DNA of 33,528 nt from a virus. The position numbers and the translations under genes were made by a program. The stretch spans positions 1-33,528 of the IMG/VR virus record IMGVR_UViG_3300026116_000026; one strand, given 5' to 3'. A model generated the notes under the pieces. That model had not been told where the DNA came from and did not search any database. It was given only the letters and a program-made list of their open reading frames with translations. Below are positions 8,739 through 28,660 of the stretch, in pieces (position 1 is the stretch's first letter; each line of letters opens with the position of its first letter).

Positions 8739-8769
8739 CTAAGGTATTGAAATATAAATCATTACTTTA

Positions 8770-10890
8770 ATGTCAATAATGTCTGGTGACAGTCCTGAGT
8801 CTGCCATTGATTTAGAAAGTCAAGGTGGCCTAACTAATGATGCTGACATCATACGAATGATGGAAAGACGCATTAATGAGAATCTAGTTATTGAGCAAAC
8901 ATGGCGTCAAGAAGAAATACGTGATTCGCTTGCTGTTTATGAAGGTGACCAATGGCTTGATGAAGACATGAAGCGTCAGTTAGCTAATGGTATGCCTATA
9001 GTTACTATTAACCGTGTTAAACCGGTTATACAATCTATCGTAGGCTTTGAAATTCAGAACCGATTAGATGTTAAATATGTGCCGCGACTTAATAATCAAA
9101 AGCAGCAGGGTTTTACAGATGTTGTAGGGAATGCTGTAAAATATATTGAACAAAAATCTAATGCTGATCTAGAATATACTCTAGCCTTCCAGGATATGCT
9201 TATATGCGGAGTTGGTGCAACTGACACATTAATGGACTATACTAAACCTCCACATGATGGTGAGTTTAGGGTTGAGAGAGTCTTTCCTGCGTTTCTATTT
9301 TGGGATCCAGCAAGTCGGAGGAAAAATAAACTTGATTCCGATTATGTAATTCGTCTTAAGGTTGTTAACCGTAATATCATCAGGCAAGAGTTTGGTCTTG
9401 ATTACTTTGACGATATCTATAGCTCTACTCTTGATGCGCGTATTTTAGAATTCTTCCAAGACATTTTAGCTGTTAAACAACTTGGCGTAATCTACGAATA
9501 TCAATGGCGCGAAAAAGTTCCTTTTAAACAAGTTGCAAATCCTTTCAGAGATCTAAATCCTGAAGAATTAGCTATGCAACAAGGTATCGATACTATGGAG
9601 GGTATTGAAGAGTTCATTACTGTCTATGAAGCTACTAAACAAATGTATGCCGAGAAGTATGACTTCGATCCTAATATGGATCAAACATTTGCAATTCAAG
9701 AATCGAGTGACTGGACTGAGTTCAAAAAAGCCTGTGACTTCTTAGGAATAAAACCTAAATTCGCGAAACAATTTAAATACAAATACTACCGTGCTATTAT
9801 CACTGGCCACAAAGTCATGGAGAAATCTGAGAATTACTCACAGAGCGGGTTTTCCATTAAATTCATGACAGGAGACTTCTCAGAACTGGTGCAACATGAT
9901 TATGGTCTACTTCGCTCTTGTAAAGAGCCGCAAAGGCTATTAAATCAAGTTGTATCCGACTACCAAGGATTCCTAAATACAATTCCTAAAGGTGGCGTAT
10001 CTATCGAAAGAGATGCAGTTGCTAATTTACAAGGCTTTTTAGATACATATTCTAAGGCCAAAATGGTTACAATATATGAGCCGGGCGCACTATCAGGCGG
10101 TAAAATGCAACCTAAGATTGCTCCTCCACTTCCTCAGGGCATCTTAGAGATGATACAATACGCAGATGCACAGATAATGTCTGTATGCGGCGTTACGCCT
10201 GAGCTCATGGGTATGATGGCATCAAAAGAGCAGAATAGCTCATTTATGCGTCAACAAATTAGACAAGGACTGACAACTTTAAGTACGTATTTTGATGCAC
10301 GTAGAGCTTATCTGCAGGATCAAGCGAGGCTCTATATTGACTGTGTACGTGTCTTGGCCGAGAATAACGAAGGGAGGCTCGTACACGATGTATTAGGAGA
10401 GTATGGGGGACAATATTTACCGCTTTTACGCGATAATATAGCTGCAGATTACGATATAATCATCGATGAAACACCTACAAGTCCAGATCAAAAAGAAGAA
10501 ACATTCTTAAAACTCTTGGATATGCAGGCAGTAATGCTTAATAAGCCAAATCCTATCGATCTTATGCCTTTGATTATGGAATATGCACCATTCCAACAAG
10601 ATGTTGTGAAGCAAATTAAAGAACTTATGCAACCTCCTCCGGCTCCTGAACCAGATCTTATTAATGAGCGCTTACTCACTACTGAAGCGGATTATAAACA
10701 AGCATCTGCGTATAAATTAACTATGGAAGCCATGGAGAAAGAGCAAAATTTACGATATAGCCCCGCCAAATATATAGCAGATATCAACTTAACGGAAACT
10801 AAAGCTGCAGCTGAGTTGGCAAAAATAGAACAAATGACTAATGAGAGAATTGATAAACGAATGAGTGCAATCTTTAATCAACAACTGTAG
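8770..10890 (+). CDS. Portal protein, P22 gp1-like
   Basis: The 706-residue portal forms the dodecameric ring at the head vertex through which DNA enters and leaves and to which the terminase and tail attach. The N-terminal region follows the P22-type portal: an RQEEIRDSLAVYEGDQW segment, then MPIVTINRVKPVIQSIVGFE and later FPAFLFWDPASRRKN. Length matches P22 gp1 (about 725). A long Ala/Glu/Lys-rich C-terminal helix (about 650-700) would form the barrel. Two ATGs (8770 and 8779) are possible starts, neither with a clear ribosome binding site. Confidence 0.88.
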   Translation: MSIMSGDSPESAIDLESQGGLTNDADIIRMMERRINENLVIEQTWRQEEIRDSLAVYEGDQWLDEDMKRQLANGMPIVTINRVKPVIQSIVGFEIQNRLDVKYVPRLNNQKQQGFTDVVGNAVKYIEQKSNADLEYTLAFQDMLICGVGATDTLMDYTKPPHDGEFRVERVFPAFLFWDPASRRKNKLDSDYVIRLKVVNRNIIRQEFGLDYFDDIYSSTLDARILEFFQDILAVKQLGVIYEYQWREKVPFKQVANPFRDLNPEELAMQQGIDTMEGIEEFITVYEATKQMYAEKYDFDPNMDQTFAIQESSDWTEFKKACDFLGIKPKFAKQFKYKYYRAIITGHKVMEKSENYSQSGFSIKFMTGDFSELVQHDYGLLRSCKEPQRLLNQVVSDYQGFLNTIPKGGVSIERDAVANLQGFLDTYSKAKMVTIYEPGALSGGKMQPKIAPPLPQGILEMIQYADAQIMSVCGVTPELMGMMASKEQNSSFMRQQIRQGLTTLSTYFDARRAYLQDQARLYIDCVRVLAENNEGRLVHDVLGEYGGQYLPLLRDNIAADYDIIIDETPTSPDQKEETFLKLLDMQAVMLNKPNPIDLMPLIMEYAPFQQDVVKQIKELMQPPPAPEPDLINERLLTTEADYKQASAYKLTMEAMEKEQNLRYSPAKYIADINLTETKAAAELAKIEQMTNERIDKRMSAIFNQQL

Positions 10891-10897
10891 GAGCACT

Positions 10898-11920
10898 ATG
10901 ATTGATCATTCCACTAACGTACCACCAAAGGAAGTATTTGGTAATCCCGATGCCTTTCGTGCCGAACTAGCTAAACTAGAACCTGAACAGCCTACTCAAT
11001 ATCCCGATCCAACTCCAGACAATATCCCTGAAGATGATATTAATATGTCTCATGAATCTACCTCAGGTGAAGAGAACATACCGGAAGAGTCAGAAGAATC
11101 GGTAGAAGAACATAACCAAGAGACATCTACTGAGCGAGCTGAAACTTCCGGAAAAGAGAAATCTCATTTGATTCCTAAGTCACGTTTTAATCAAGAAATC
11201 GAGAAACGCAAGGCTTTAGAAGAACAGTTAGCTACTGAACGCGAGAATAGAATTCGCTTTGAGACGCAATTGCAGATGCTCGATCAACAACATCAGAATG
11301 CTCAGTTACAACAGCAACAACAAAATGCTGCAATGCAACAAGAGGTTCTTGATAATATAGATCCATTAGATAGCGATACTTATAACTATGCTAAACGTGA
11401 GATAGATGCCCTTAAAGCGCAACTTGCAACCGTAGCTCATGAGACTGAACAACGCACTAAAGAAATGATCTATACTAATCGCGTTACTACAGATGAAGCT
11501 AAATTTCAAAAAGATCATCCTGATTTCAATGATGCTTTTGCTCATGTTCAGAAAGTTGAACTCGATATTGCTAAGAATCTTCTTGGTAATGAGGCAGCCG
11601 CGCAATCTTATGTTGCAGATCGCATGCGTGCAGTCTTGACTACCAGCGTAGATAGTGGCAAAAATGCCGCTGAAACAATCTATAATATGGCGAAAACATA
11701 TGGCTATAATACAACTACCAGAAGCGAAAAAACCAAGCCGGCTATCAATGTGGAAGCCGTCGCTAAAAATATGGCACGTACTGCTAATACTTCTAACATT
11801 GGTAACAGTGGTACTTTTGGCAACGTTCCTACTGACATAGCTGCTGCACTTGATAAAAGTGGACGCGTTGATGTGGGTTTATTCCATAAGCAATTAGAAA
11901 GACTTCAAAAAAACATGTAG
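10898..11920 (+). CDS. Scaffolding protein
   Basis: GGAG lies before the ATG at 10898; an upstream start at 10865 would overlap the portal gene and is less likely. The 340-residue protein is acidic at the N-terminus (Glu/Ser-rich, about 35-95), then forms a long Gln-rich coiled coil (about 100-165), and is helical to a basic C-terminus (LFHKQLERLQKNM). This layout and the position between portal and capsid gene fit the scaffolding protein that shapes the procapsid and then leaves. There is no protease gene or motif nearby. Confidence 0.8.
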   Translation: MIDHSTNVPPKEVFGNPDAFRAELAKLEPEQPTQYPDPTPDNIPEDDINMSHESTSGEENIPEESEESVEEHNQETSTERAETSGKEKSHLIPKSRFNQEIEKRKALEEQLATERENRIRFETQLQMLDQQHQNAQLQQQQQNAAMQQEVLDNIDPLDSDTYNYAKREIDALKAQLATVAHETEQRTKEMIYTNRVTTDEAKFQKDHPDFNDAFAHVQKVELDIAKNLLGNEAAAQSYVADRMRAVLTTSVDSGKNAAETIYNMAKTYGYNTTTRSEKTKPAINVEAVAKNMARTANTSNIGNSGTFGNVPTDIAAALDKSGRVDVGLFHKQLERLQKNM

Positions 11921-11958
11921 ACCACATCCAAGGCATAAGTTATTGTAATATATAATGT

Positions 11959-12146
11959 TCTGGAAAGAAATTCTTACTTATTGAACCTTTGTAAGTTGCA
12001 CTTTCCAGACGCACACTTGCTAGGGCGACGCACAGCCAACAGAGATCAGCAACTCTATAAAAGGTTCGAGCCAAGGCACCCTCGATAAACAGCCTCGTAT
12101 TGCAAGAGATAAGTAAAATTTATTTCAATCTTTACGAGGGATACTC
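11959..12146 (+). ncRNA. Structured 5' leader of the major capsid gene
   Basis: This unusually long leader in a tightly packed region contains several perfect helices. TCTGGAAAG (11959-11967) pairs with CTTTCCAGA (12001-12009). CTTAC (11973-11977) pairs with GTAAG (11991-11995), and the internal loops are 5 by 5. The apical loop GAACCTTT (11983-11990) is complementary to AAAGGTTC (12060-12067), a pseudoknot. CCTCGTA (12093-12099) pairs with TACGAGG (12133-12139), which includes the capsid Shine-Dalgarno GAGG. CCCTCG (12079-12084) can pair instead with CGAGGG (12135-12140), and CGAG (12067-12070) with CTCG (12081-12084), so alternative folds exist. Regulation of capsid synthesis is inferred. 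Confidence 0.6.
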
Positions 12147-13268
12147 ATGTCTACAACGACGTTTAGTACCAACTCGGCGAGTACGGTCAAGTTATGGTCA
12201 CAAAGAACTCTTTATGATTTCGTAACCGATACCGAGATGTTAGGCCAAATGATGAAGGCTGGCACACTCCGTCGTGTTGATGATACTTCTAAAACCGCTG
12301 GTGACCGCGTCACCGTTTCTTACCTACAAAGACTTACAGATCAAGGTTTACTTGGTATGCAATCTGCAACTGGTTTGGAATCTGCATTAACCTACTTTAC
12401 AGACAACGTAAGTATTGATCAGCTACGTATCGTGGTGGAAAACCCAGCACCTTACACTATCGATGCACAACGTGTTCTGTATAACATTCCAGAAGATACC
12501 TACAGAGTTGAATCTGAATGGATGAAAATCCGTGGTCTTCTTGGTGCTTTCAACCAAATCGCTGGTAACACTGCAACAACTATTACTTATGATGGTGTAG
12601 CTTACTCAGGTAACGATAGACTAAAAATCACAGGACTAAATGCTGCTGTTGCTCCTTCTACTACTTCTGGAGTAACTAGGATCATCAGACCTAATGGTTT
12701 AACAACTGACCAAGCTGTAGCTGCAGACACAACTGCTACTGCGAAGTTAACCGATATCCTAACTTGCGAAACTATCGCACAAACCTCTAGGCCTTATATC
12801 AGGCCGCTTTCTGAAACTTCTGAAATCAAATATCACTACTATGTACACACTCAATGTTACATGGATTTGATGACCGATGCTTCTGCAAGTCTACAGTACA
12901 GAGATATTCAACAAGCGTTGATTACTTCTGGCCGTGGTGAAGGAGAAATGCAACGTAGTTTTGTCTTCTCTCAGACTCGCGTTTTCAATTCTGATAAAAT
13001 ACCAAATGGTGTTGATTCAGGAACTTCCGCAGCTGTTGCTAACTCTAGAAGAAACATCTTCACTGGTCGCGATGCCGGTGGGATTTGCTTCGGAAAAGGC
13101 TTCACTGATGGTAGGGAGAATGTGGCTGGATTCCTGGTAAAAACTGACTTCCAGGACGTAGGCAATTTGCAAAGAATAGCTCTAATTGGGATCTTCGGAA
13201 TTAAGAAGGTTGTGTTTAACAGCAATGATAACGGTTCCATCGTGTCCGTTAACTATAGCTCAATTTAG
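12147..13268 (+). CDS. Major capsid protein, N4 gp56-type
   Basis: The 373-residue shell protein shows the pattern of the N4 gp56 / Phage_capsid_3-like group: an N-terminal WSQRTLYDFVTDTEMLGQMM segment, then DRVTVSYLQRLTDQGLLG, then LTYFTDNVSIDQLRIVV, a Gly-rich middle, and a C-terminus with ALIGIFGIKKVVF. The HK97-like fold is expected. It follows the scaffold gene after a structured leader of about 190 bases in which the ribosome binding site (GAGGGA, 12136-12141) may be base-paired. Together with P22-like neck genes, this is a mixed set of virion parts. Confidence 0.85.
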   Translation: MSTTTFSTNSASTVKLWSQRTLYDFVTDTEMLGQMMKAGTLRRVDDTSKTAGDRVTVSYLQRLTDQGLLGMQSATGLESALTYFTDNVSIDQLRIVVENPAPYTIDAQRVLYNIPEDTYRVESEWMKIRGLLGAFNQIAGNTATTITYDGVAYSGNDRLKITGLNAAVAPSTTSGVTRIIRPNGLTTDQAVAADTTATAKLTDILTCETIAQTSRPYIRPLSETSEIKYHYYVHTQCYMDLMTDASASLQYRDIQQALITSGRGEGEMQRSFVFSQTRVFNSDKIPNGVDSGTSAAVANSRRNIFTGRDAGGICFGKGFTDGRENVAGFLVKTDFQDVGNLQRIALIGIFGIKKVVFNSNDNGSIVSVNYSSI

Positions 13269-28497: not shown

Positions 28498-28569
28498 TTA
28501 ATACAAAGAGATTCGAACTCTTCTCTACCCCGTATCAGTGCGTTGCTTGCCATCTAAGCTATCATACTA
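28498..28569 (-). tRNA. tRNA-Ile(GAT)-like gene
   Basis: On the minus strand: D arm GCTT-AGATGGC-AAGC, anticodon loop CTGATAC (anticodon GAT with T33 and A37), and T arm AAGAG-TTCGAAT-CTCTT. The 7-bp acceptor (TAGTATG with TGTATTA) contains G-T pairs, and pairing continues outward for seven more pairs (28570-28576 with 28492-28498), giving a helix of about 14 bp. The anticodon stem has mismatches and there is no encoded CCA. It may be a functional odd tRNA, a decaying tRNA, or a tRNA-like processing signal. Confidence 0.55.
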
Positions 28570-28589: not shown

Positions 28590-28660
28590 TCGAGGCAAAG
28601 AGAATCAAACTCTTGTCGCCCACCTACAATGATGAGGCTTTATCACTAAGCTATACTCCA
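28590..28660 (-). tRNA. tRNA-Thr(TGT)-like gene
   Basis: On the minus strand: acceptor TGGAGTA with TGCCTCG (one mismatch, G-T pairs), linker TA, D arm GCTT-AGTGATA-AAGC, anticodon arm CTCAT/GTGGG with an 8-base loop containing TTGTA (anticodon TGT), and T arm AAGAG-TTTGATT-CTCTT. Pairing continues beyond the acceptor (28661-28667 with 28584-28590). D and T arms closely resemble those of the neighbour at 28498, so the two probably share an origin. The promoter at 28676-28704 directly precedes it. Confidence 0.55.

Follow-up and report, generated by a model that had tools for sequence, protein, structure and literature searches.

The 5' leader of the major capsid protein gene in this viral genome is probably a cis-acting RNA that controls translation of the gene by means of two competing folds. 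Comparison with the leaders of related capsid genes reveals a predicted closing helix (P1), a hairpin with a conserved loop (hairpin 0), tandem mini-pseudoknots, a helix that sequesters the Shine-Dalgarno (SD) sequence, and a strand common to the last pseudoknot and the SD helix. The structure is well supported; on the best reading, it would represent an undescribed translational switch for the capsid gene, in which the SD would be freer when the domain is folded and which presumably responds to a trigger. The features of the region, all located on the plus strand, are:

11936 to 11952, plus strand: promoter-like block TAAGTTATTGTAATATA, kept in the closest relatives (alignment)
11959 to 12009, plus strand: 5' hairpin (stem 11959-11967/12001-12009), wholly different in sequence in relatives, the hairpin being kept in many
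12016 to 12020, plus strand: 5' strand of the predicted closing helix P1, CUUGC (strand-swap test, 20 leaders)
12024 to 12037, plus strand: hairpin 0, GGC (12024-12026) with GCC (12035-12037), with a conserved loop (RRCG..UA.A)
12041 to 12066, plus strand: mini-pseudoknot B, stems S1 12041-12044/12053-12056 and S2 12048-12050/12064-12066 (AGC/GUU)
12067 to 12095, plus strand: terminal mini-pseudoknot C, stem S1 12067-12070/12081-12084, A-rich linker, stem S2 12074-12077/12092-12095 (AGGC/GCCU)
12093 to 12099, plus strand: anti-SD strand CCUCGUA, with 12093-12095 in common with pseudoknot C
12102 to 12106, plus strand: 3' strand of P1, GCAAG (strand-swap test, 20 leaders)
12133 to 12139, plus strand: SD segment UACGAGG, sequestered by 12093-12099
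12147 to 13268, plus strand: major capsid protein gene

The window, i.e., the whole stretch of 33,528 bases analysed here, comprises positions 1 to 33,528 of the IMG/VR virus record IMGVR_UViG_3300026116_000026 and contains a podovirus-like gene set of terminase, P22-like portal, Phage_capsid_3 capsid and SU10 adaptor. The capsid gene product matches Pfam Phage_capsid_3 (E = 1.2e-17), consistent with the label of an N4 gp56-type capsid in the preliminary description, and the major head protein family phrog_334 (E = 1.7e-24). No ORF of at least 50 aa was listed in the gap 11921-12146, which extends from the stop of ORF 10865-11920 to the capsid start at 12147. The TAAGTTATTGTAATATA block at its upstream end, which shows no match to the sigma-70 consensus, may serve as a promoter. 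Two extra copies with two mismatches each occur in the window at 1762-1778 and 8740-8756, the latter immediately upstream of the portal gene; three matches were reached by 2 of 100 shuffles. On the minus strand, weak Rfam tRNA matches at 28499-28568 and 28590-28660 (33.7 and 29.3 bits, threshold 29), both uncalled by ARAGORN, are possibly degenerate tRNA genes.

A 231-nt leader stretch beats 199 of 200 dinucleotide shuffles in folding (z = -3.0), which together with the covariation described below sets it apart from an ordinary unstructured leader. The preliminary description had drawn a 9-bp hairpin (11959-11967/12001-12009), which is present with 9 of 9 pairs, and a hairpin over the capsid SD, which was likewise recovered: 12093-12112 and 12120-12139 are 70% complementary, and the outer CCUCGUA/UACGAGG pairing (12093-12099/12133-12139) is perfect. 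The segment 12079-12084 (CCCUCG) can indeed pair with the SD and also with 12067-12070 (CGAG); the latter pairing, which covaries, forms S1 of the last pseudoknot. The notion that the leader is pseudoknotted and has pairings at the capsid SD which exclude one another is thus borne out by covariation across 20 leaders, but not with the pseudoknot originally named, a pairing of the loop 11983-11990 with 12060-12067. Its complementarity is complete (8/8), but chance alone is estimated to yield about 0.3 such pairs of octamers in 190 nt, and it is retained only by L002, the capsid of which is 99% identical; in L003, L007, L009 and the other leaders the octamer is lost or reduced to U-rich/A-rich wobble matches. 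We therefore dismissed it as a meaningful pseudoknot. That description contains neither P1 nor hairpin 0 nor the tandem pseudoknots.

Since complementarity and a z of -3.0 alone prove no function, relatives were compared. Capsid relatives were collected from IMG/VR by sequence and profile searches, supplemented by DNA patterns in the leader; apart from a few named distant phages they are metagenomic, and distant leaders were anchored by hand. Kinship among leaders inflates simple shuffle tests, so that swap tests and versions with one leader per group provide the safer numbers. The core common to the relatives' leaders corresponds to about 12016 to 12106 in the window, whereas the region of the 5' hairpin and the segment between core and SD are variable. 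A coding leader peptide was rejected, as one-base indels in L003, L009 and L059 disrupt the reading frame across the core and the changes fit the stems.

The conserved pseudoknots are well supported by this comparison as candidate mini H-type pseudoknots arranged in a row, of which the window has two (12041-12066 and 12067-12095) and relatives have up to four. For 17 window-type leaders, a model of hairpin 0 and the two pseudoknots leaves 97.7% of the alignment cells paired, as compared to 25-45% when partners are slid, with a covariation score of 0.25 (0.04-0.08 with slid partners) and 20 double-changed cells versus 5.7 in shuffles. The compensatory changes in homologous leaders that the preliminary description had proposed to look for occur in both pseudoknots. 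Support within the chain is best for pseudoknot C, with compensatory CG<->GC and AU<->UA changes in S1 and GC<->AU and UA<->CG changes in S2 (ten double-changed cells in S2). In pseudoknot B, S1 shows compensatory AU<->GC changes (7 cells in the 17-leader alignment), and S2 is 94% paired, all of its changes in this alignment (A4) being one-sided; S2 is stronger in L077 (AGCA/UGCU) and L063 (GGCA/UGCU). A nested helix of AGGU (12062-12065) with GCCU, preferred by RNAalifold, lacks double changes and is broken in several cells, and was discarded.

Distant leaders contain the module with other stems, namely CGUG/CACG with GUCA/UGAC, GCAA/UUGC, AUCG/CGAU and GCCU/AGGC; their terminal S2 stems include GUCA/UGAC, AUCG/CGAU and GUCG/CGAC. 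Modules are about 22-40 nt long with short S2 helices of 3-4 bp, and four occur in a row in L063 and, under a looser grammar, in L077. The loose pseudoknot-chain score of a single leader is often no better than that of shuffles. Because the loose grammar is undiscriminating, the claim of a chain rests on comparison rather than on the window alone, and a strict grammar and swap tests were used: in 22 non-redundant leaders, 21 modules satisfy the strict grammar, as against a mean of 1.8 and a maximum of 7 in 200 shuffle sets.

P1 joins the segment immediately 5' of hairpin 0 to the segment immediately 3' of the anti-SD strand. Its mean energy over 20 leaders is -7.2 kcal/mol with the leader's own strands and -4.6 kcal/mol with swapped strands (permutation p = 5e-5), an effect that persists when each sequence group is represented by a single leader. 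In the 13 window-type leaders only, the effect is weaker (p = 0.03), because CUUGC is common to most of them. Other leaders form P1 from different strands: UUCUAGUUAU/AUAACAAGAA with one mismatch in L012, GUUCUAGU/ACUAAGAAC with one bulge in L060, UUUCUUGC/GCAGGAAA in L122, GAUUCU/AGAAUC in L077, and AUUUCC/GGAAAU in L075. The stem of hairpin 0 has 100% of its cells paired in 17 leaders, with variation from GC to GU only, and is replaced in L078, L038, L065, L067 and L070. Further upstream, the 5' hairpin folds with z values of -2.6 in the window, -4.6 in L009, -5.5 in L059, -4.4 in L064 and -4.1 in L122; in other leaders (L012, L078, L040) its z is not significant. Its conserved position and free sequence would fit a hairpin at the 5' end of the mRNA better than a part of the switch.

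The SD helix was likewise stronger with its own strands (-11.6 kcal/mol) than with swapped strands (-8.3 kcal/mol) in 20 leaders (p = 5e-5), and the test remained significant for the eight distant leaders alone (p = 1e-4). In 15 of the 20 leaders it beats the leader's own anti-SD strand shuffled (p <= 0.03); this comparison was not significant in L063, L065, L070 and L078, and in L063, L070 and L078 the helix is weak or absent. In most leaders the SD helix starts inside, or adjoining, the 3' strand of the last pseudoknot. As bases 12093-12095 are common to S2 of pseudoknot C (12092-12095) and the SD helix (12093-12099), the two cannot fully coexist. With the last pseudoknot committed, the mean modelled probability of an unpaired SD was 0.43 instead of 0.08 (control masks 0.08), figures from a nested-fold model that overstates precision and in which the mask also strips other pairing options. 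A mask on S2 alone exposes the SD in only some leaders, and the window is not among them.

We propose that in fold 1, P1 would close a domain (12016-12106) holding the conserved-loop hairpin and two stacked mini-pseudoknots; GCCU (12092-12095), the 3' strand of pseudoknot C, would then be held by the AGGC in its own loop and hold the SD less tightly. Fold 2 would pair 12093-12099 with the SD (12133-12139), turning translation off. We infer that the cell switches between the two, with fold 1 as the ON state and a protein as the signal. Fold 1 is proposed to form first during transcription, so that newly made mRNA would be ON. The SD hairpin of the window has a predicted energy of -15.3 kcal/mol on its own and looks stronger than pseudoknot C; fold 1 would therefore need co-transcriptional kinetics or a binding partner. 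The balance may be set by a factor, most likely a phage or host protein, which recognises the loop of hairpin 0 and/or the pseudoknot stack. That loop, which recurs twice in L062, a relative devoid of the chain, appears to be the best candidate contact.

Free change of the stems with preservation of the fold, as well as the variable number of modules, would also suit a constitutive element, in which the pseudoknot stack and the 5' hairpin protect an abundant capsid mRNA while the SD is kinetically open and nothing is sensed; the 5' hairpin, free in sequence and conserved in position, adjoins the promoter-like block. However, pure protection or enhancement would not require an SD-sequestering helix, and this helix covaries; the sequence conservation of the hairpin 0 loop also argues against a constitutive role, which we consider unlikely. 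That same loop (RRCG..UA.A), the two CGAUACA-loop hairpins of the chain-less L062 (P = 4e-4 in shuffles) and the confinement of the element to leaders of this capsid clade would suit an autogenous or cross-regulatory operator, which would be a special case of the two-fold translational control reading. Here a phage protein (capsid or late) would bind hairpin 0 and the pseudoknots and repress or activate translation, by analogy with T4 gp32. Yet the analysis did not pick out a candidate RNA-binding protein, and we know of no dsDNA-phage capsid protein that acts as an RNA regulator; such an operator is possible, if somewhat doubtful.

A P1-closed domain with conserved unpaired bases and an SD expression platform also calls to mind a metabolite riboswitch, whose domain would bind a small molecule and control the SD. 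The absence of an Rfam riboswitch match, the lack of a metabolic role of the regulated gene, and the fact that the unpaired bases beyond hairpin 0 are mostly A-rich linker make this quite improbable. Least probable is an RNA thermometer, in which temperature melts the SD hairpin and the pseudoknots merely tune it: a single SD hairpin with internal loops does cover the SD in the window, but the covarying pseudoknots and P1 would be left unexplained, and no thermometer family matched.

The chain is not universal in the capsid clade, since it is absent in two lineages, L062 (55% capsid identity) and L081-L084 (44%). No chain was seen by eye in the leaders of more distant capsids, which have 27-33% identity and belong to Bartonella, Ochrobactrum, Microcystis, Rhizobium and Paracoccus loci. 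Elsewhere in the fetched loci, strict modules formed arrays only in the capsid leader of L063, apart from scattered coding-like matches, and pattern scans beyond the capsid clade yielded matches that were chance-like or represented different hairpins in L105, L108 and L110. The latter are unrelated phages with two or three tandem GUGNAGAGAARCAC-GUUAAAAA-ACGC hairpin units (L105:3054-3095; L108, 1809-1847, minus strand; L110, 9522-9560, minus strand) immediately 5' of an ORF that is scaffold-like by sequence; these units have no Rfam match and are unlike the pseudoknots of the chain. The chain-less leader upstream of L062:2001 contains the two CGAUACA-loop hairpins, and a CUUUAAG/CUUAAAG stem covers its SD. 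In two named distant phages, free-standing HNH endonuclease genes (L042:456-1031 and L043:267-845) adjoin the capsid gene.

Searches with the Rfam 15 covariance models at the gathering threshold gave no match to the leader in the window, 16 relatives and outgroup loci; the best sub-threshold scores were 15.5 bits for CRISPR-DR66 (threshold 45) and 13.9 bits for mir-362 (threshold 80). With its predicted aptamer-like domain closed by P1 and an SD-sequestering platform sharing 12093-12095, the leader has the architecture of a translational riboswitch. In guanidine-III and preQ1 riboswitches and the rpsO/S15 and alpha operon/S4 leaders, SD pairing is controlled by a pseudoknot or in competition with it, as proposed here; these systems have a known ligand or ribosomal protein and usually one pseudoknot, whereas the present element is a capsid leader without an Rfam match. 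The type III antitoxin RNA ToxI also consists of tandem pseudoknots, but as near-identical repeats followed by a toxin gene. In the capsid leader, modules are non-identical (about 22-40 nt), B and C differing in sequence, the next gene encodes the capsid, and PADLOC detected no toxin among ten window genes.

To our knowledge, no T4 gene 32-type leader has a strand shared between pseudoknot and anti-SD. The H-type pseudoknot of such operators has its counterpart here in the covarying S1 and S2 stems, but the downstream gene codes for the major capsid protein and not for a ssDNA-binding protein. The gene 32 leaders of T4, T2 and RB69 resemble the present one in that an H-type pseudoknot in a tailed-phage 5' leader, about 70 nt before the start codon, is tied to translational control, and differ from it in having a single pseudoknot, a ssDNA-binding protein gene and no P1 (PMC3014915). 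Repression by gp32 involves cooperative binding along an AU-rich stretch, and a description from 2010 calls this pseudoknot perhaps the only viral one used in translational autoregulation (PMC3014915). Consecutive small H-type pseudoknots linked to translation occur in the upstream pseudoknot domain of tobacco mosaic virus; they belong to the 3' UTR of a plant RNA virus with a eukaryotic host and no SD, unlike the capsid leader (PMC4683447).

Within the collection of papers searched, the literature on capsid leaders and on tandem pseudoknots in phages yielded no report of such an element, and capsid-gene leader translational switches in DNA phages are barely documented. Tentatively, the leader may represent a new class of tailed-phage RNA switch, in which two to four mini-pseudoknots in tandem would form a rod closed by P1, the last strand of which would alternate between the pseudoknot and the SD. 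Such a switch would sense a phage-made or host factor via the conserved hairpin loop and thereby time capsid synthesis. If this holds, a conserved chain of pseudoknots coupled to the capsid SD would add a new way of controlling the dosage of the shell protein. The leader would also provide a compact model of stacked H-type pseudoknots with free choice of stems, and could serve as a reusable modular part.
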